From: Candidatus Pacearchaeota archaeon
Lineage (GTDB): Archaea; Nanobdellota; Nanobdellia; Pacearchaeales; GW2011-AR1
Length of the DNA stretch: 35,500 nucleotides
Direction of reading: 5' to 3'
Assembly: GCA_016866995.1 (NCBI GenBank)
Contig: VGKQ01000008.1
Coordinates: 1 to 35,500, forward strand
Made by a program: the position numbers and the translations under genes. A model generated the notes under the pieces. That model was given only the letters and a program-made list of their open reading frames with translations, was not told the origin of the DNA and did not search any database. Shown here piece after piece: positions 5,700 to 29,855 of this stretch (its first letter is position 1; every line of letters starts with the position of its first letter).

Positions 5700-6638
5700 A
5701 TGCCTCCAAACTTAAAAAAAATAATATATGGAGCATGTTTATGGGGATTAAAATTTCCTATTGCAATAGCTGATATCGAGCCCACTTTTAGACAAGCAAG
5801 AAAAATATTTGATGAATCTGGTTTTCTAGGACAATGTTCTGTTGAATTATTTGCAGCATCAGAGCCAATACCAACTGCAGATATACATTATGCTGCAGCT
5901 GTCAGGGAAGCCTCACAGGAAAATAATTTTGTTCCAATAACAATGATTTTCCGCCCAAAACCAAGTCCAAGCATGGTTTCTTCAAGCAGAAAAAAGAGGA
6001 AGGAAGCTGTTGAACAGTGTGGCAGAAGCATAGAACTTGCAGTCATAGCCACTCCCCAGCAACATCCAGTAATTGTAAACGGCCCGTTTCAATTAGTTCA
6101 TGGAGCAGGAAAAATTGAAACTATTACTCCCACAAGAAAAAAATATTTAGTAGATAGCTTAAAGCATGTTGCTGAAAAACTAGAAGAAAAAGCAAGAGCA
6201 TACGGAGCACTCGAGCCATTAAGACGAAGCGAGACAAAAATGCCAAGCCAAGCAGATTTCTGGCTTGATGTTCTTGACAGGGTTAAAAGTCCCCGCCTCG
6301 GACTTTTAGTAGACACTGTTCATTTTTACGAGGGAAATGGGGGTTCAGAAGAAATGCTAAAAGCTCTTGAGATGGTTTGCCAGGCAAGAAGATGTTTCGG
6401 AGTTCATCTAAGCAATTACCCAAGCAGAGTTGAATGGGAGCCAAGTGGAATTGCAAAATACACTCCAGAAATACTTAGAATATTAATAGAACATAAATGT
6501 AAAGTGCCTGTTGATTATGAAGGTTTTGATACATGCCTGGATAAACTTGTTGGACTTCAAAGAAATCCAAATCAAAAAAACCAGACAGAAGTATTTGCTC
6601 GTTCAATGAGATATCTTGCCAGCCATGTAAAACAATAA
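5700..6638 (+). CDS. Sugar-phosphate isomerase/epimerase, tagatose-3-epimerase-like TIM barrel
   Basis: LEPLRRSET ... GLLVDTVHFYE ... GVHLSNY ... VPVDYEGF motifs of the PF01261 superfamily. Confidence 0.8.
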   Translation: MPPNLKKIIYGACLWGLKFPIAIADIEPTFRQARKIFDESGFLGQCSVELFAASEPIPTADIHYAAAVREASQENNFVPITMIFRPKPSPSMVSSSRKKRKEAVEQCGRSIELAVIATPQQHPVIVNGPFQLVHGAGKIETITPTRKKYLVDSLKHVAEKLEEKARAYGALEPLRRSETKMPSQADFWLDVLDRVKSPRLGLLVDTVHFYEGNGGSEEMLKALEMVCQARRCFGVHLSNYPSRVEWEPSGIAKYTPEILRILIEHKCKVPVDYEGFDTCLDKLVGLQRNPNQKNQTEVFARSMRYLASHVKQ

Positions 6639-6685
6639 AATAAAAGATAAATTTTTTCAAAAATTGTAAGGAGGTAAAAATAAAA

Positions 6686-7729
6686 ATGGTAAGTACTTTA
6701 ACAAAACCAAGCCTGGGTTTTCTTACAATATGCCGTGATATGGGGCAAGACCTTAAACCAGGTTTAGATGCACTTCAAGATAATGCTCTATTTGCAGTAA
6801 AAAATGGATATAAATTTTTAGAAGCAGCAGCTTTTCCAAGGCAAATGGAAGGAGAAACCACAGTAAGAGATTTTTATGGAGAAACAGTTAGTGTTGACTG
6901 GGTTTTAGCCAATCAAGCAGCAGCCAAAGAAGGAGTAAAAAGAATACAAGATAAAACAGGAGTTTCTGTTGAAGCTCTTTGCTATTGTGCAAATACAATT
7001 GGAAATGAAGCAGACAGAAAACATTTCCATAAAGTTGTAAAGGCAGCCGCAGTATTGGGTGTTCCAAATGCAGTTGGATTTATTGGAAATGTCTGGAATG
7101 AAACAGCAGGAATGAAAGGAGAACAAAGAAGAGATTATACTGCAAGAGCACTCACAGAAAGATTAGGGCCAATAGTTGATGAAGCAGATTCCTCTGGAGT
7201 TAATGTTGCAATTGAAAACTGCTCTATGAGAGGAGCTCTTGGATATGGCAGTCAAAGCCTTACATCTAATTGGTTCTCAACGCATTCAGAAATAAGATTT
7301 GTGTTGGGTGTATTGCCTAAGCTAAAAATGTGGTTTGACCCTTCACATATAAGAAACTACAGGGCTCAAAATTGTCCAGAACCTAGCGCAACAGTTCCAA
7401 TAGTAAGAATGATACAGGAGTTTGGAAAACATTTCAGTGGCTCGCATCTTAAAGATGGAGAAGATAATGTTGCCGGAATGTTGATACACGCGTCTACAGG
7501 AGATGTTTATGGAGATAATTCACACACAGGCGGAATATGGATTGCACGAGCGCCTGGAAGAGGACAGATATACTGGCATCCTTTTGAGGGAGCTATGCAA
7601 TTATATGCACCACAAGCTTTTGCAAGGTCTGTTGAAATGGAAGATTTAGCTGTCATGGGAAGAGCAGCAAATGAAGATGCTTTAAGAGGAGTGAAAGCTT
7701 TCTATCAGCCAATACTTGACAGAAATTAA
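6686..7729 (+). CDS. PF01261-type TIM-barrel isomerase/epimerase
   Basis: GVNVAIENCSM, KMWFDPSHI, GSHLKDGE, APGRGQIYWHPF; strong Shine-Dalgarno AAGGAGG upstream. Confidence 0.8.
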   Translation: MVSTLTKPSLGFLTICRDMGQDLKPGLDALQDNALFAVKNGYKFLEAAAFPRQMEGETTVRDFYGETVSVDWVLANQAAAKEGVKRIQDKTGVSVEALCYCANTIGNEADRKHFHKVVKAAAVLGVPNAVGFIGNVWNETAGMKGEQRRDYTARALTERLGPIVDEADSSGVNVAIENCSMRGALGYGSQSLTSNWFSTHSEIRFVLGVLPKLKMWFDPSHIRNYRAQNCPEPSATVPIVRMIQEFGKHFSGSHLKDGEDNVAGMLIHASTGDVYGDNSHTGGIWIARAPGRGQIYWHPFEGAMQLYAPQAFARSVEMEDLAVMGRAANEDALRGVKAFYQPILDRN

Positions 7730-7846
7730 TTTTTTATTTTTTCTTTTTTTATTTTTTTAAATATATATCAGAACTATAAATTATCTTATATATTTTTCAA
7801 GACATAAATATTTATAAATATCCCCAAGTTAAATAAATAAACAAAA

Positions 7847-9004
7847 ATGCCACAAACATCTAAGCATAATTTCTGTGCATGGACTTTTAATGACGGCAAA
7901 AAAGGATTTACGCCATGCATGAGGCCTATGTGGAGCAATCTTTCTACTGTTGATAAAATTCAAATTACACGAGAAAGAGTTATTCCAAGAATACAAAAAG
8001 CAGCCGGATTATTTATTGCTCCTCTTGAGTTTGGATTTGAATTTCATTATGATAATGAATTAAATGAAGAAAATGCAGATGATGTTGCTCATGCTCTTGT
8101 TGAAGAAGAGCCAAAAATTTATGTTGGAATGACTACTCCTGGAGCTCATGTTCACTATGCATTTGGAGGAAGCGGCTCTTTAGATGATGTTGAAAGAGAT
8201 GGAGCAAGCAATCTTGGAATAAGAACAGTTGATTTGACATATAATCGGTTAAGAAAAGCATGGCATCCTGACACGCCTCCAACTCTTGTTTTATGGAATG
8301 GCTCGTGGGGTTATCATCTTGCAAGTCCTGCTATTCCTGGAATGCGCCAGCGCCTAAAAGGAGGTATTGCAGGATTGTGTAAACACGAAATGCAAAAAGG
8401 CGGATTATTATATTTTGCTATTGAACCAAAAGGAAATGAGGGGCATGCTCATCACATGGTTCCTGTTGTCGGAAGCGCAATCTCAATGTGGAGAGAAATA
8501 GAAGATGAATACGGAATTCCAAGAAAGAAAAAAGGTGTTAATAGAGAATTAGGACATGATGAAATGCTTGGACTTTGTACTATTTTTTCAACATCAGAAG
8601 AAATTGATAATGACATGCTTGTTCACGAGCATTTAAATTCTCAGGGCGGAAATGATGGAATAAGTTTAGGAGGGCCAGGAAAGTTTGATATTGACCATGA
8701 GGTTAAAGTTACTGGCAATGGAATAGTTATTGCAAGAATGATGCAAAATGCAGGATATTCAAGATGGTGCGGGCATGATATGCAGCCTCGCCCGTATGAT
8801 GCTATCAAGCAGGCTTTAGAAAGATGTGTAAGAGCAGCTTTGGCATGGGAAGCATGCAGAAAAGCTGGCAAGGAAATGCCATGGAATGAGATGATAAATG
8901 CATATGCAAGAAGAGATACAATTACTGTCGAAGACATGATGCGAGATTCTTTAACAAAAGCTCATGGTTATTTCAGAGAAACGTACCAAGCTTCTCTGTC
9001 TTAA
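7847..9004 (+). CDS. Divergent xylose-isomerase-like protein
   Basis: FAIEPKGNE (metal Glu/Lys), NRELGHDEMLGL (E-x-x-H-like), PGKFDIDHEV, CGHDMQPRPYD (cf. GFDVKPRR of XylA). Confidence 0.8.
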   Translation: MPQTSKHNFCAWTFNDGKKGFTPCMRPMWSNLSTVDKIQITRERVIPRIQKAAGLFIAPLEFGFEFHYDNELNEENADDVAHALVEEEPKIYVGMTTPGAHVHYAFGGSGSLDDVERDGASNLGIRTVDLTYNRLRKAWHPDTPPTLVLWNGSWGYHLASPAIPGMRQRLKGGIAGLCKHEMQKGGLLYFAIEPKGNEGHAHHMVPVVGSAISMWREIEDEYGIPRKKKGVNRELGHDEMLGLCTIFSTSEEIDNDMLVHEHLNSQGGNDGISLGGPGKFDIDHEVKVTGNGIVIARMMQNAGYSRWCGHDMQPRPYDAIKQALERCVRAALAWEACRKAGKEMPWNEMINAYARRDTITVEDMMRDSLTKAHGYFRETYQASLS

Positions 9005-9037
9005 ATTAATTTTCTGAAAAAATAAAAAGATAATAAA

Positions 9038-10528
9038 ATGACAATTTTAGCAGGAATTGATGCTGGAACAACCAGAGTTAAGGGTGTGATAATCAAAGAT
9101 GATGGAGCAATTCTCGCAGAAGTAACAACTCCTGATAACGATATACCAAAATATGTTGATAGTGAAAAAGCGTATTCTGAACAAAACCCAGATGACTGGG
9201 TAGATGCTGCTAAACAGAATCTAGCAGCTCTTGTTCAAAAAAGTGGAAAAAAACCAGATGCAACAGGAGTTTCAGGACAAATGCACGGTTTAGTTGCTCT
9301 TGACAAACACGGAAAACCATTAAGAAGAGCTATAATCTGGGATGACAGAAGAACAGATGCTGAGTCAAAACATATTCAGGAAGCAACAGGAAAAGATGTC
9401 GGGCATTTTACTGTTGCAAAATTATTATGGGTTAAAAATAATGAGCCAGAAGTTTTCGGAAAGATTGACAAGATAATGTTGCCAGAAGATTACGTAGCCT
9501 ATAAGCTCACTGGAGAGATGACAACAACTCCTCAAGGTTTATCGCAAATGAGATTATGGGATTTTAAAAAACACTGTCTAGATACAAGAGTTTTTGATGC
9601 AACTGGAATTCCAAGATTTATGATTCCACAAGTGATAACAAATACAGGTGTACATGGAAGAATTACAAGAGAAGTTGCAAGTCAAACAGGTTTATCAGAA
9701 GGGACTCCTATTCATGCAAAAGCAGGAGACCAAGAGTCAGCTGCAATCTCAAATGGTGCTGTAAGAAAAAAAGATGCATACGTAAACAGCGGGACATCAG
9801 GAATTATTGGAATTATAACAGAAGATATGCAGGATAAATCAGGAAGAGGAATTTACTGGATGGGACATCTTAATGAAACTGCTATCATTCTTGCTTGTAC
9901 TCTTGCATGTGGAGCTTCTTACAAATGGGCAAGAGACAATTTATTCCCGGATGCTAAAGAAAAATTAACTGATGATTTAGTCTATCCTGTAATAAATATC
10001 TTTGCTGGAAGAGCCCCTGCTGGCTCAGGAGGAGTTATCTGGCTTCCGTATCTCAAGGGAGAAAGGTCTCCACGAGATGATTCAACAATACGGGCAGCAC
10101 TAATAGGAATGGGTGAAAAAACTCCGCGAGATTATTTAGCACGCGCTGTTTTAGAAGGAGTTGCACACTCATTCAGGCACTGTCAGCAAGTTCTTGCACA
10201 GCAAGGAAATAGATTTGAAAAAGTCAGAGCAAGTATGACAGGACTATTATCAGAAACAAGTCCCTTTATACATATACTAGCAGATGATTTACAAGTTCCA
10301 ATAGAATTTGTCAGTAATCCTGGAGGCTGTTACGGAGTTGCATTAGCAGCTGGAGTCGGAGTGCAAGTTTACTCTTCTTTAGAAGAATCTTGTGACAGAA
10401 CAATAAAACCTCTTGCAGTAGTTGCTCCAAGGCAGGAAAATCTTGAAGCTCTGACACGCTCGTACAAGAGATTTGTTGAAATGGGAGATGTTTTATCTCC
10501 TATATTTGCAAAAAATGCAGAAAAATAA
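9038..10528 (+). CDS. xylB: FGGY carbohydrate kinase, xylulokinase-like
   Basis: AGIDAGTTRVKGVII; GVSGQMHGLVALD; AIIWDDRRT; AGDQESAAISNGAV; NSGTSGI. Confidence 0.9.
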   Translation: MTILAGIDAGTTRVKGVIIKDDGAILAEVTTPDNDIPKYVDSEKAYSEQNPDDWVDAAKQNLAALVQKSGKKPDATGVSGQMHGLVALDKHGKPLRRAIIWDDRRTDAESKHIQEATGKDVGHFTVAKLLWVKNNEPEVFGKIDKIMLPEDYVAYKLTGEMTTTPQGLSQMRLWDFKKHCLDTRVFDATGIPRFMIPQVITNTGVHGRITREVASQTGLSEGTPIHAKAGDQESAAISNGAVRKKDAYVNSGTSGIIGIITEDMQDKSGRGIYWMGHLNETAIILACTLACGASYKWARDNLFPDAKEKLTDDLVYPVINIFAGRAPAGSGGVIWLPYLKGERSPRDDSTIRAALIGMGEKTPRDYLARAVLEGVAHSFRHCQQVLAQQGNRFEKVRASMTGLLSETSPFIHILADDLQVPIEFVSNPGGCYGVALAAGVGVQVYSSLEESCDRTIKPLAVVAPRQENLEALTRSYKRFVEMGDVLSPIFAKNAEK

Positions 10529-10577: not shown

Positions 10578-11840
10578 TTATCTTATTCTCTCTTTTAACT
10601 GATACATGAAAACTCCAAGCTGCTCATCTTTTACAGGGTCTGAATGCCCATCATAGCTCAAGTTCAGCATAGGAATGTTATTATTTCTTGCTCTCAACTC
10701 AGCTGTTTTTGATGAAACAACAGTTCCAGGCATGCAGTTGAAAGGCAGAACATTTACAATTCCCTGAACACGAGATGCAAAATACTCGCTTGCTCCTAGA
10801 GTGACAATTGCCTCTCCTTTGTAAGCTTCATGAACATATTCTCTTCCACGAGCAATGACTTCAGAAGCAGATGCATCATGAGAAAATTCTCCTAAAACTC
10901 CCGAGAATAAATGAGCAATATCTCTCTCATCTCTTCTCATCATTCTTACATCAATCCAGGTTTTCAAAAATTTTCTCCACTCTCTTTCATCTCTCGCCTC
11001 TCTCAGCTTGAACTCATTAATATAATCAAAAAATGATGTTACAGGCTCTAATAAAACAACTCCGCCAAGATTTTCAATTCTCTCAGCAAGATTCTGATTA
11101 GCAACATCACTTGAGCGGACATAAATCTCTCCTGTTAAAAATACAACAGGCTTTTTCTGCTCTCTCTTTTTAACTTTAACAAACTCTTCCACAGCTTGTT
11201 CAATTGTTCCTAATAATTCACATTTATGTTTATTTAAAAGAATTCTTGCCCTCTTCCCTGTTCTCGAGCCAGGAATTCTTTTTTCTATAACTCGAACAAT
11301 TCCCTTGAGATATCTGTCATAAATTTCTCTGCTTGTTCCAGGTTCTATTTCAAAAGGGCGGGTAAAGTGCAGACATCTTTCAAGCAAAGAAAGAGCAACC
11401 ATTCCATCCCAGATTCTAATTTTAGCATCACTTCCCATCCCAGAATAAGCATCTCTGTTGTCAAGAGTAAGTATGGGAACATTAATTCCTAAATCATGCA
11501 AAATTGCTTCTTGATTCATACAGTATCTTCCAAATCTGCACGGCCCCTCGCTCTTCCCCTGGAAAAATGCTTCATTATCTACTTGAAAATCTTGAGAAAA
11601 AACTCTCTCTAAAATATCTTGTGTTGTAATAATAGAAGGCAGACACTGATCCCCATTTGTATATTTTCTTCCAATTGAGAATCCAGCATCCTGAGAACGA
11701 GTCAGAACACCAGAATTATATCCCATACTTCTTAATACAGCAGCAAGTATGTAAGCAGAATCACACATATGTGGAATCCATATCTTTCTGTCTCTCAAAT
11801 CTTCAAGTTTATAGTCTCTAAATTTAAATCCAGGCTTCAT
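10578..11840 (-). CDS. 2-hydroxyglutaryl-CoA dehydratase D-component-like protein
   Basis: IWIPHMCDSAYILAAVLRSMGY ... GDQCLPSIITTQDIL ... EGPCRFGRYCMNQEAIL ... CMPGTVV; ATGA overlap with upstream gene. Confidence 0.85.
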   Translation of the reverse strand: MKPGFKFRDYKLEDLRDRKIWIPHMCDSAYILAAVLRSMGYNSGVLTRSQDAGFSIGRKYTNGDQCLPSIITTQDILERVFSQDFQVDNEAFFQGKSEGPCRFGRYCMNQEAILHDLGINVPILTLDNRDAYSGMGSDAKIRIWDGMVALSLLERCLHFTRPFEIEPGTSREIYDRYLKGIVRVIEKRIPGSRTGKRARILLNKHKCELLGTIEQAVEEFVKVKKREQKKPVVFLTGEIYVRSSDVANQNLAERIENLGGVVLLEPVTSFFDYINEFKLREARDEREWRKFLKTWIDVRMMRRDERDIAHLFSGVLGEFSHDASASEVIARGREYVHEAYKGEAIVTLGASEYFASRVQGIVNVLPFNCMPGTVVSSKTAELRARNNNIPMLNLSYDGHSDPVKDEQLGVFMYQLKERIR

Positions 11841-13027
11841 CTTCTTTCTCCTTGTAATTCTATGCTGTCCAAAAATGCCTCTAATCTTGTAACAAGCCCG
11901 GCATCTGCTGTATGCTCATCAATCTGCAAAGTTAAAAACGGCTTTCCAAGCTCTCTTTCAAAAAAACTTCTTAAAAATGAATTTGGCCCGCATCCAAAAT
12001 AATCAAGAAAAACAGCATTCAGCCCAAGTTTCCTTGAAACATTTGCAGCTCCAAGTATTAATTGCCCCTGAATTGAAAACTCATTCCCCCATCTTCTTGA
12101 CAAATCTTCATCAGGAAGAGGAAGGAAATCCATTGGCAGAGGAGTAAAGCCATAATGCGCAACTTTCCCAGCAAGTTTTAAATTCATTTCTTCGTCATAA
12201 GCAGTATAGGGCCTTCCAACAATAACAATTCCTCTGCTTCCAAGATTATCAAGAACTTTTTTTCCTTCTGCCCTCAATGATTTTTTAAATCTTAAGTAAG
12301 CAATTTCTCCATCAACAAAAGCATTTTCTATTTCTCTCTCGCTGAAATTCAAGCCAGCTCTTGAAAAACTATCTCTCAATTCCATGAATAATTTTTTTCT
12401 GTCTCCTCTTAAATTAATAACAGGATTTATGCATCTTGTTTTTAAAGTATTTCTCGCAACAACCGGGCCAAAATTCTGCAGATATGGGCATGTTCTGCTT
12501 CTGTCCCATTCAGTTTCCCTTATTCCACTATCATCAGAATACTTGCTTCTCTGGCTCTGAATAATATCTGGAGCAAAAACAAAATCAACTCTGCCGTCCA
12601 AATCTGCAAAATGCCCAAATGCAACTTTAAACGGATAGCAGAATTCAGCAGTTGTCTTTTCCAAGCCGTCAGAAATTATTCTCTTGTTTGTTTTCTGTGA
12701 AGGAACAACACTAAAGCCAAGATTAGAAAGAAATACTGCCCACAAAGGTGCAAGTTCATAAAACATTCCTGCTCTCGGCAGTCCAGCACTTGTTTTCTGC
12801 CTTGATTTTTGCAGATATTTTTCTAACATTTTTTCACGAACATCAAAAGGATTGCTTGCTTCCTCTTCTGATTTTCCTTGATACTTCTCGCATCTGTCTC
12901 CATAAAACATTTTTCTTCCTTCTGTTTCTACAATAGTCACATCACAAGTATTTTCGCAGCCCTTGCATCTGAAAATTCTCTGCTCATAACTTGAAGTTGC
13001 AATTTCATCAAATCCTCTGAAGCTCAT
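11837..13027 (-). CDS. DUF2229-type acyl-CoA dehydratase activase-related protein
   Basis: CKGCENTC...GDRC; AGLPRAGMFYELAPLWAVFLSNLGF; CYPFKVAFGHFADL; VGRPYTAYDEEMNLKL; DYFGCGPNSFLRSFF; QIDEHTADAGLVTRLEAFLD. Confidence 0.9.
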   Translation of the reverse strand: MSFRGFDEIATSSYEQRIFRCKGCENTCDVTIVETEGRKMFYGDRCEKYQGKSEEEASNPFDVREKMLEKYLQKSRQKTSAGLPRAGMFYELAPLWAVFLSNLGFSVVPSQKTNKRIISDGLEKTTAEFCYPFKVAFGHFADLDGRVDFVFAPDIIQSQRSKYSDDSGIRETEWDRSRTCPYLQNFGPVVARNTLKTRCINPVINLRGDRKKLFMELRDSFSRAGLNFSEREIENAFVDGEIAYLRFKKSLRAEGKKVLDNLGSRGIVIVGRPYTAYDEEMNLKLAGKVAHYGFTPLPMDFLPLPDEDLSRRWGNEFSIQGQLILGAANVSRKLGLNAVFLDYFGCGPNSFLRSFFERELGKPFLTLQIDEHTADAGLVTRLEAFLDSIELQGERR

Positions 13028-13116
13028 TTTATAGGCAAAGACTCTGAAAATTTAATTTTGTTATCTTCAAAATTTATTTTAGTTTTTGTTACTTTGCGTA
13101 ATTTAATGAAGCTCAT
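13024..13116 (-). CDS. Putative small ORF MSFIKLRKVTKTKINFEDNKIKFSESLPIK, coupled to the DUF2229 gene
   Basis: ATG at 13116; TGA overlaps the DUF2229 ATG (ATGA); its start context is an exact 16-nt copy of the DUF2229 start context. Confidence 0.4.
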   Translation of the reverse strand: MSFIKLRKVTKTKINFEDNKIKFSESLPIK

Positions 13117-13136
13117 TTTATATTTTGCATATTTTC

Positions 13137-14891
13137 TTATGCAACCTTCCTCCTCTCATTTTTTTCTTTATAACTTTGTTTTGCAATCATAGCAATCCCA
13201 ATTGCTCCTGTTAAATCAGGATATTTAGGAACTTGAATTCTTTTCTCAAGAAGTGTTTCAAACCCAGCAACAACAGCCTGGTTAAAAGCAACAGCACCCT
13301 GAAAAACAACATTCTGCCCAACTTCCTTTGCAACTCTATTCAAATAATTCCTGCATATTGCATAAGCTAATCCAGCGCACCTGTCTTCAAGTGGAGAATC
13401 TTGATAAGATAATAAGCTTGATGCCATAAAAACAGCGCATTTCTCAGACAAATCACATGGGTTTCTTGAAGCAAGTGCGAGCCTTGCAAAATCTCCCTTA
13501 ATGCTTATTCCAAGAATTTTTGCCTGCTCTTCAAGAAACGAGCCAGTAGAAGCAGCGCAAACCTTGTTCATCTCATTGTCAACAACTTTTCCATCCTGAA
13601 TTTTAATATACTTAGAATCCTGCCCGCCAATCTCAAAAACAGTGTCAGCATCAGGAAAAAAATAAACAGCTCCCTGAGCCTGCGCAGTTATCTCATTTTT
13701 AACAACAGCTCTTTTTCCAGGAACACTAATCCAGTCAGCAGCAATCTCTCTTCCAGAGCCAGTAACTCCTGCTTCAAGAACATCAACAAGCTCTTTGATT
13801 TTTTTTCCTCCAAGTTCAATATTTCCAAGCCTCTTCATGACATCAGTGACTGCATCAAGCGGCTTTCCGCTTGTTCTTTCATACAAGCCAAGAATAAATC
13901 TTCCATTTTCATCAAGCAATACTGCCTTTGTGCTCACGCTTCCAACATCCAAGCCAAGATAAACTCGTGTTCTTCCTGAAAGATTATAATCGCGGTTTAC
14001 AGAAAGAGTAACTTCATTTCCATTCTGCCTGTCTATAACTTCATAAGAAACCCTAATCCCTTCAAGCAATTTAAGTGAAAGCAAACCACAAACATCTTTT
14101 CTGAAATTTTTTAATTTTTCAATCACATCTCTCAATTCAAATCTTTGTCTTGCATAGTGCGCACATCCTGCTGCTTTCAAGTATAAAAAATCTTTTGGAA
14201 TAATTACCTCTTTTCCAGTTCCTTCTTTAAGAAATCTTACAACTGCTTTGTTCATTCCAACTCCTCCAAGCAGAAAAATTGGCTCTTTTGTTTTTCCTCT
14301 GCATATCCCATTCACAAAATTTCTTGCTAAAACCTGGCACAAGCCAGCGGCAATCCCGTCTGCTTTTGTTCCTCTCTGATAATGATGAGTAACATCGCTC
14401 TCTGCAAAAACAGCGCACCTTGCTGAGATGTTTGCAGCAACCTCTGCATCATATGCTGCCTGGACAAATTCTTCAAGGCTCATATTCAGCCTTCTTGCCA
14501 TTTTCTCAATTAATGCCCCTCCGCCTGCGCCACATAATGGGTTTGTTGCAAAGTCCTCCAGAACAAGCTCCCCATCTTCATAATGTATTGAATAGTGCGA
14601 GGAATTTTCTTTCCCAATATCAAAAACACTTCTTGCATCAGGATGATATCTTCTTATTCCCTCAAGAACTGCAACTGCATTTGGTGTATGTAAAATTTCA
14701 AGAATCTCAGCAATTGCCTTGCCATTAATCCCAGTAACTCCAACTTCATACTCTCCATCTTCAAATTGCTGAAGAACTTCAACTGTTCTCTCTCTCGGCT
14801 TTCCCTCAATTGCTTTTCTGATTATTCTCAAGCCATTATTCAAAGCAACAGCAGTTATATTCCCGGCTCCAATATCTAATCCAAGTTTCAT
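13137..14891 (-). CDS. Double-domain BadF/BadG/HgdC-type ATPase (activase)
   Basis: Two ASKHA modules: MKLGLDIGAGNITAV...CGAGGGALIEKM...SARCAVFAESDV and YLGLDVGSVSTKAVLLD...CAASTGSFLEEQ...SEKCAVFMASSL; both keep the two cluster cysteines. Confidence 0.92.
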   Translation of the reverse strand: MKLGLDIGAGNITAVALNNGLRIIRKAIEGKPRERTVEVLQQFEDGEYEVGVTGINGKAIAEILEILHTPNAVAVLEGIRRYHPDARSVFDIGKENSSHYSIHYEDGELVLEDFATNPLCGAGGGALIEKMARRLNMSLEEFVQAAYDAEVAANISARCAVFAESDVTHHYQRGTKADGIAAGLCQVLARNFVNGICRGKTKEPIFLLGGVGMNKAVVRFLKEGTGKEVIIPKDFLYLKAAGCAHYARQRFELRDVIEKLKNFRKDVCGLLSLKLLEGIRVSYEVIDRQNGNEVTLSVNRDYNLSGRTRVYLGLDVGSVSTKAVLLDENGRFILGLYERTSGKPLDAVTDVMKRLGNIELGGKKIKELVDVLEAGVTGSGREIAADWISVPGKRAVVKNEITAQAQGAVYFFPDADTVFEIGGQDSKYIKIQDGKVVDNEMNKVCAASTGSFLEEQAKILGISIKGDFARLALASRNPCDLSEKCAVFMASSLLSYQDSPLEDRCAGLAYAICRNYLNRVAKEVGQNVVFQGAVAFNQAVVAGFETLLEKRIQVPKYPDLTGAIGIAMIAKQSYKEKNERRKVA

Positions 14892-15010
14892 TTTGATATA
14901 TTTTCAAGCGAATATAATACTTATAAAGATTTATGGGGCAGAATGAAATATTGATTTTTTATTTTCTTTTAATGTCAATTATAAGAACTTTTCCCAAGCT
15001 AAAAAACTCT

Positions 15011-15097
15011 ATGCCGGGCGCAGCTCTGCTCACTGGTCGACTTTTATAAAATAAAAAATTGTTAAGTCGGCGCAGCTCGCCCTTCGGGCTCGCTAGT
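15011..15097. repeat. GC-rich structured intergenic island
   Basis: GC-rich block in AT-rich DNA; repeated CGCAGCTC; GTCGACTT/AAGTCGGC stem (15036-15043/15064-15071); GCCC-TTC-GGGC hairpin (15079-15089); GCTCGC direct repeats around it. Confidence 0.6.
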
Positions 15098-15320
15098 ATT
15101 AAATTGAATTTATTAATTTTTGGAAAAAGTGTGAAAAAACCTTTTAATTAAAATAAAGAAACAAAGATATTCCTGACATTTTTGACATCAAAAAATAATA
15201 TAATATAAAAATTCAGCTTCAATTCAATATATATTCGATAAATTTAATTAATAAAATAATTCATGTAAGATATTAATTCAAAAAATAAATAAAATGTAAA
15301 ACAATAACAAAAACAAAAAA

Positions 15321-29730: not shown

Positions 29731-29855
29731 GGACCCGTAGCTCAGCCCGGTTAGAGTACTTGGCTCTTATAAACCTTTTAGAAAAAGGTTTCCAAAAGAT
29801 GGCATAAAGCCATGAAGAAACCAAGGTGTCGTGGGTTCAAATCCCATCGGGTCCA
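29731..29855 (+). tRNA. tRNA-Lys(CTT) with a 50-nt intron (29770-29819)
   Basis: GGACCCG/CGGGTCC acceptor, GCTC/GAGT D-stem, CTTGG/CCAAG anticodon stem, loop CT-CTT-A | intron | A, GTGGG-TTCAAAT-CCCAT T-arm; no encoded CCA. Confidence 0.92.

Follow-up and report, generated by a model that had tools for sequence, protein, structure and literature searches.

The window analysed here is a stretch of 35,500 nucleotides (nt) of contig VGKQ01000008.1 from a Candidatus Pacearchaeota archaeon (assembly GCA_016866995.1). Its minus strand carries an operon of three genes, all intact, which encode 1,400 amino acids (aa) in total. The order of the products is that of a protein of about 1,400 aa that is fused in bacteria.

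13137-14891, minus strand: gene 1, double BadF/BcrA-type activase (ACT), 584 aa, two ASKHA modules (open reading frame (ORF), Pfam and alignment)
11837-13027, minus strand: gene 2, DUF2229 protein, 396 aa (ORF, Pfam and fold model)
10578-11840, minus strand: gene 3, last domain of the fused protein (PlsR-like), 420 aa (ORF and fold model)

The Pfam profile BcrAD_BadFG matches two stretches of gene 1 (E 7e-49) and DUF2229 matches gene 2 (E 2e-45), two of the three profiles proposed for a check in the original prediction, a reading of the bare sequence. Gene 1 also aligns to the solved activators 4eht, 9gai_D and 1hux. Gene 3 has no Pfam match, and neither catalytic protein (genes 2 and 3) matches Pfam HGD-D or an NCBIfam dehydratase or reductase model. 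NCBIfam names nothing in the catalytic parts, whether of the window or of the fused homologues. Each ASKHA module of gene 1 has two conserved cysteines, C120/C159 and C445/C485. Gene 2 has an N-terminal Cx2Cx3C...C unit (C21, C24, C28 and C46) and the core residues C130, C180 and C346, while gene 3 has C66, C101 (in the GPCRFG motif) and C369. These motifs were already pointed out in the original prediction, and the alignment bears it out: all 14 positions are cysteine in every homologue with a residue there (26 homologues from four clades). The gaps are in the truncated L010 at ACT C120 and C159 and in L078 at DUF2229 C21.

AlphaFold models of gene 3 (predicted local distance difference test (pLDDT) score 85.7) and DUF2229 (pLDDT 79.4) were matched against PDB structures. 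The eight Foldseek rows of gene 3 at E <= 0.001 all belong to 2-hydroxyisocaproyl-CoA dehydratase, benzoyl-CoA reductases or DCCP, and VIA gives 3o3m_D with Z 13.1 and a root mean square deviation (rmsd) of 4.6 Å over 285 residues. The earlier description of this protein as dehydratase-D-like thus holds for the fold and fails for the Pfam HGD-D profile. For DUF2229, nine rows of the superfamily of benzoyl-CoA reductases (BCR), 2-hydroxyacyl-CoA dehydratases (HAD) and DCCP lead the VIA list with Z 11.5-14.5, and the next row is at 9.1; the top values are those of 3o3n_B (Z 14.5, rmsd 4.2, 268 aligned). The sequence profiles of DUF2229 and gene 3 give only chance rows against the PDB, so the link to HadBC, BzdNO and DCCP rests on fold. 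On its model, DUF2229 looks like a catalytic subunit of the BCR/HAD/DCCP fold and not an accessory part. As both models have the catalytic-subunit fold, the operon encodes a whole machine of activase and catalytic pair, and its type, an ATP-driven activase with two catalytic subunits, is close to certain. Activase homology, predicted catalytic folds and cluster cysteines agree with the ATP-driven low-potential reductase of the HgdC/HgdB kind that had been proposed.

The number of cysteines bears on the clusters. BzdO holds a [4Fe-4S] cluster on three cysteines and BzdN a double cubane on six (PMC11971306). An [8Fe-9S] cluster of the DCCP type takes six cysteines in the catalytic subunit. Gene 3 keeps three, the BzdO-like number, and DUF2229 keeps seven, four of them in the N-terminal unit outside most fold matches. 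Three cysteines per core would give a [4Fe-4S] cluster with an open site in both catalytic subunits. The N-terminus of DUF2229 suggests a ferredoxin-like four-cysteine unit.

The DUF2229 protein was scanned against one genome per species (84,980 species) with exact peptide patterns, which confine the matches to fairly close relatives. The scan returns 31 bacterial loci, mostly of Armatimonadota. All three parts lie in the same order in one open frame in 24 of them, as the original prediction had it for the fused form. A contig end interrupts an otherwise continuous frame in four loci (L010, L014, L022 and L036), the frame breaks in three (L011, L020 and L038), and none of the 31 is cut into these three genes. 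Identity of the window to the Armatimonadota-type fused proteins is 37-42% for the activase, 35-42% for DUF2229 and 29-40% for the last protein. A Listeria protein (L067) shows the same profile order, Act1-Act2-Red1-Red2, in a single frame, and in Fusobacterium (L072) the activase and DUF2229 share one frame and the last domain stands apart in a second. Archaeal relatives are cut after the activase (L039 and L040), cut before the last domain (L079) or fused (L077, L078, L080 and L081). Splitting as such is therefore already known, and only the three-way cut appears new; we found no description of it in the literature on Woesearchaeota and plasmalogens or on Armatimonadota and Ger, covered mostly in passages. 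The three-gene form thus seems new, and the machine itself is known.

Other arrangements also occur. Some archaeal relatives (L082-L087 and L042) combine the parts differently, in a short set where one activase of a single module accompanies one or two DUF2229-like proteins; in at least one of them the activase ends in a Cx2Cx3C-type tail that matches the N-terminus of DUF2229. A very divergent archaeal fused relative (L041 6243-10952, genome G034) has 1,570 aa and the longest branch in the tree. On a Paraclostridium bifermentans plasmid (L068 3213-7088), a double activase with DUF2229 and no recognised last domain adjoins ABC-transporter and cupin genes and a Crp/Fnr regulator, and perhaps has a different substrate.

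Phylogeny of split and fused forms, suggested with the original prediction, was built from the joined domains (47 rows) and from each domain singly (three trees, 27 rows each). The window is sister to the Armatimonadota-type fused clade in all trees, with support by the Shimodaira-Hasegawa-like approximate likelihood ratio test (SH-aLRT) of 99 for the joined domains, 98 for the activase, 92 for DUF2229 and 88 for gene 3; in the gene-3 tree, the branching order inside the group of the window and the Armatimonadota type is not resolved. It lies outside the PlsA clade (Listeria, Fusobacterium, Acetoanaerobium, Collinsella and Haliovirga) and outside two archaeal clades. Its branch is long (1.2-1.4), which calls for care in reading the trees. 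On these trees, the three genes share a single history. Together with a sister clade that is fused throughout, this suggests that an originally fused gene was split. The system is patchy, with 5 of 56 relatives, 14 of 371 phylum genomes, 8 of 181 family genomes and, by the gene-3 profile, 12 of 378 class genomes, counts that include some short single-activase sets. A bacterial origin by transfer is likely, if unproved.

The original prediction had assigned no substrate to the reductase. For the family as a whole that no longer stands, as the architecture is that of the bacterial plasmalogen synthase PlsA/PlsR and glycerol ester reductase Ger, with lipid ester substrates. These enzymes reduce the ester bonds of acyl lipids, giving vinyl or alkyl ethers, with activity seen by expression in E. 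coli (PMC12838417, PMC13274423, PMC11150832). Plasmalogen synthase has two activation and two reduction domains in the order Act1-Act2-Red1-Red2, and is encoded by two genes, plsA-plsR, in C. perfringens and by a single gene of 4.2-4.9 kb in Enterococcus, Lactococcus and Bifidobacterium (PMC12838417). PlsA orthologues are present in Listeria, for which reason we call L067 PlsA (PMC9702350). Ger is PlsA-like and makes alkyl ethers, the validated Ger have two activation domains, and Ger and PlsA are not yet distinguishable from sequence alone (PMC13274423, PMC11150832). The chemistry proposed for the family is two sequential electron reductions followed by protonation and dehydration (PMC8788747). 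Ger-like matches (blastp E < 1e-30, identity >= 30% to the query) in metagenome-assembled genomes (MAGs) of Woesearchaeia are already published, together with the suggestion that DPANN archaea modify lipids (PMC11868695). Literature on DUF2229 and its COG numbers yielded nothing on function.

We lean towards reading the operon as a three-subunit ATP-driven reductase of the PlsA/Ger type that acts on acyl esters, and hold this moderately probable. A low-potential donor such as ferredoxin would reduce a [4Fe-4S] cluster bridging the two ATPase modules, and ATP hydrolysis would drive single electrons onto the pair of DUF2229 and gene 3. Each of these would carry a three-cysteine [4Fe-4S] cluster with an open site, with the four-cysteine unit added at the DUF2229 N-terminus. 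The pair would add electrons to the acyl ester, and with loss of water a vinyl or alkyl ether would form. The substrate would be fatty-acyl ester bonds of glycerolipids, probably from a partner organism. The proteins are collinear over all domains with the bacterial fused protein, the Listeria PlsA-type ORF and the Fusobacterium plsA+plsR-type pair, and the total of 1,400 aa fits both the Act1-Act2-Red1-Red2 layout and the size of the plasmalogen synthase genes (PMC12838417). The 14 cysteines common to the PlsA clade, the catalytic folds and the kinship of the activase to solved activators argue in the same direction, as do the two activation domains, found also in validated Ger (PMC13274423), and the Ger matches in other Woesearchaeia MAGs (PMC11868695).

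The gene content of the host adds to this. The host is an archaeon with a small genome; its archaeal nature, assumed from the start, agrees with three matches above NCBIfam cut-offs on the same contig (transcription factor S, type II methionine aminopeptidase and archaeal signal peptidase I) and with a tRNA whose anticodon arm carries a long insert. The genome bin comprises 1.06 Mb in 70 contigs, at 85.6% completeness; its size and that of related genomes suggest a DPANN archaeon. GGGP synthase is not detected in the bin or in any of 20 genomes, and PlsY, UbiA and CDP-alcohol phosphotransferase are not detected in the bin. Another contig of the bin (C6; L076 3665-6275, G000) encodes side by side an acyltransferase of the PlsB/PlsC kind, a nitroreductase-family protein and a cardiolipin-synthase-like protein, with the acyltransferase and cardiolipin-synthase matches below NCBIfam equivalog cut-offs. 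The bin also has a protein with a POR_N domain (pyruvate:ferredoxin oxidoreductase-type), a possible source of reduced ferredoxin. The lipids are probably a partner's because GGGP synthase, UbiA and PlsY are undetected and the acyltransferase and cardiolipin-synthase-like protein are detected. Remodelling of scavenged ester lipids by the host is plausible. The full picture, in which an archaeon with no lipid backbone synthesis of its own rebuilds ester phospholipids of a bacterial partner as ethers with this reductase, beside an acyltransferase and a cardiolipin synthase, and thereby crosses the lipid divide by chemistry on borrowed lipids, is tentative and we think it rather unlikely as a whole.

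Several observations weigh against a lipid substrate of the PlsA/Ger type. The window groups with the uncharacterised Armatimonadota-type clade and not with PlsA. Its identity to PlsA-clade proteins is 20-29%, and the three proteins are 29, 27 and 22% identical to Listeria PlsA; because of this and of the position outside the PlsA clade, we infer the lipid substrate rather than observe it. No lipid gene adjoins the operon, and the gene absences in the bin are soft because it is 85.6% complete. Foldseek gives no rows under E 0.001 for the DUF2229 model, and the top rows are unrelated or nitrogenase-like. Acyltransferase PF01553 is present in 5 of 11 carriers and in 17 of 64 other genomes (picked from phylum and family genomes with no match to the system), which is no significant excess (p 0.28); an earlier count of 1/20 had looked better, and with the larger comparison this co-occurrence was rejected as lipid support. 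The two PF01869 stretches in the window are also found in 7/7 homologues scanned, Listeria and six others, and are not discriminating, so that counting them to separate Ger from PlsA was rejected.

In a rival reading, the same machine in the Armatimonadota-type clade and its archaeal sister reduces a small molecule, as DCCP does, or an acyl compound that is not a lipid, and we regard this as possible, if short of probable. The clade is separate from PlsA in every tree, the identity is low, lipid neighbours are missing from the window and the bacterial loci alike, and acyltransferase co-occurrence is not significant. However, the domain order, the 14 cysteines and the full-length alignment are common to the PlsA clade, and no conserved partner gene indicates another pathway. 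In the bacterial loci, several of which are short, the best neighbour cluster occurs in 5 of 31, and with no conserved neighbour the context yields no substrate. A bacterial gene that stands alone is what one would expect if the enzyme works on lipids already made. A canonical 2-hydroxyacyl-CoA dehydratase or benzoyl-CoA-type reductase with a CoA ester as substrate is very improbable: the solved relatives of the activase do activate such enzymes and the catalytic folds match HadBC, BzdNO and MbdON, but the catalytic proteins lack the Pfam HGD-D and NCBIfam matches, profile searches find no CoA-transferase, canonical dehydratase partner or related pathway gene in the window, as the original prediction had stated, and the double activase and Cx2Cx3C unit are common to the PlsA clade.

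It remains to weigh whether the three frames are real. The features between and before the genes are these:

11848-11853, minus strand: Shine-Dalgarno-like AAGGAG, 7 nt before the ATG of gene 3
13028-13136, minus strand: spacer of 109 nt between genes 1 and 2, with a 30-codon ORF
13107-13122, minus strand: 16-nt direct repeat TATAAAATGAGCTTCA, upstream copy, in the gene 1/2 spacer
13018-13033, minus strand: 16-nt direct repeat TATAAAATGAGCTTCA, second copy, spanning the start of gene 2 (DUF2229)
14921-14927, minus strand: TATA-like box TTTATAA, about 30 nt before gene 1, read from the sequence

The start of gene 3 overlaps the stop of gene 2 in ATGA. The split looks real because gene 3 has its Shine-Dalgarno site and genes 1 and 2 are 109 nt apart, a spacer absent from the fused homologues. 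An assembly error behind the three frames is unlikely, and we give very little credence to an artefact, either one fused gene broken by such errors or a pseudogene in decay: the sister clade has the fused form, a single indel would join genes 2 and 3, which nearly keep the collinearity of the fused linker, the 16-nt repeat lies within the gene 1/2 spacer and frames break in 3 of 31 bacterial loci, but AAGGAG precedes gene 3 at 7 nt with overlap of start and stop, 109 nt and a different frame separate genes 1 and 2, every cluster cysteine is retained, and two-gene forms exist in Fusobacterium and archaeal relatives. The two TATAAAATGAGCTTCA copies are 89 nt apart; repeats of at least 16 nt occur in 4 of 20,000 single-base shuffles. 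TTTATAA is a putative promoter element of gene 1, and no TATA-like box is seen in the 40 nt preceding genes 2 and 3.

Upstream of gene 1, a GC-rich stretch (14980-15140) is predicted to fold strongly, with -38.6 kcal/mol for 160 nt. It sits in an AT-rich gap and its GC-rich core words are single-copy in the window. At 5700-10528, the plus strand encodes in a row three TIM-barrel proteins that resemble xylose isomerase and an FGGY kinase closest to xylulokinase, which may form a sugar pathway in this small archaeon. They were rejected as operon partners, since they lie on the opposite strand and converge on the operon. A tRNA gene at 29731-29855, missed by ARAGORN, has its anticodon arm lengthened by an insert of about 50 nt.

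Pfam still lists DUF2229 as uncharacterised; here it looks like a catalytic subunit of the BCR/HAD type. The three-chain form should be easier to study than the 1,400-aa fusions, as activase and catalytic pair are separable for purification, mixing and mutation. If the lipid function is true, it offers a testable enzyme for whether small-genome archaea with no backbone synthesis reduce borrowed bacterial ester lipids to ethers.

Among known systems, the Armatimonadota-type fused BadF-BadF-DUF2229-HGD proteins (L008-L038) are the closest relatives, with 29-42% identity per domain and the sister position in all trees; they are encoded by one gene where the window has three, and their clade is uncharacterised. 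PlsA/PlsR shares the double activase, DUF2229 and last reduction domain in order, the 14 cysteines and the length of about 1,400 aa, whereas the window has three genes, is archaeal, is 20-29% identical and belongs to another clade. A trace of HGD-D appears only in the Collinsella protein (L071), below cut-off (E 0.005). Ger of Thermotoga maritima and Desulfatibacillum alkenivorans, compared by its published description, is PlsA-like with two activation domains (PMC13274423), as is the window. Class I BCR, 2-hydroxyacyl-CoA dehydratases and DCCP (BzdNO, HadBC, MbdONPQ and DCCP) share the catalytic-subunit fold and the activase homology. Their activases, however, are separate single-module chains, while the window has the extra Cx2Cx3C unit and catalytic subunits with no sequence-profile match.

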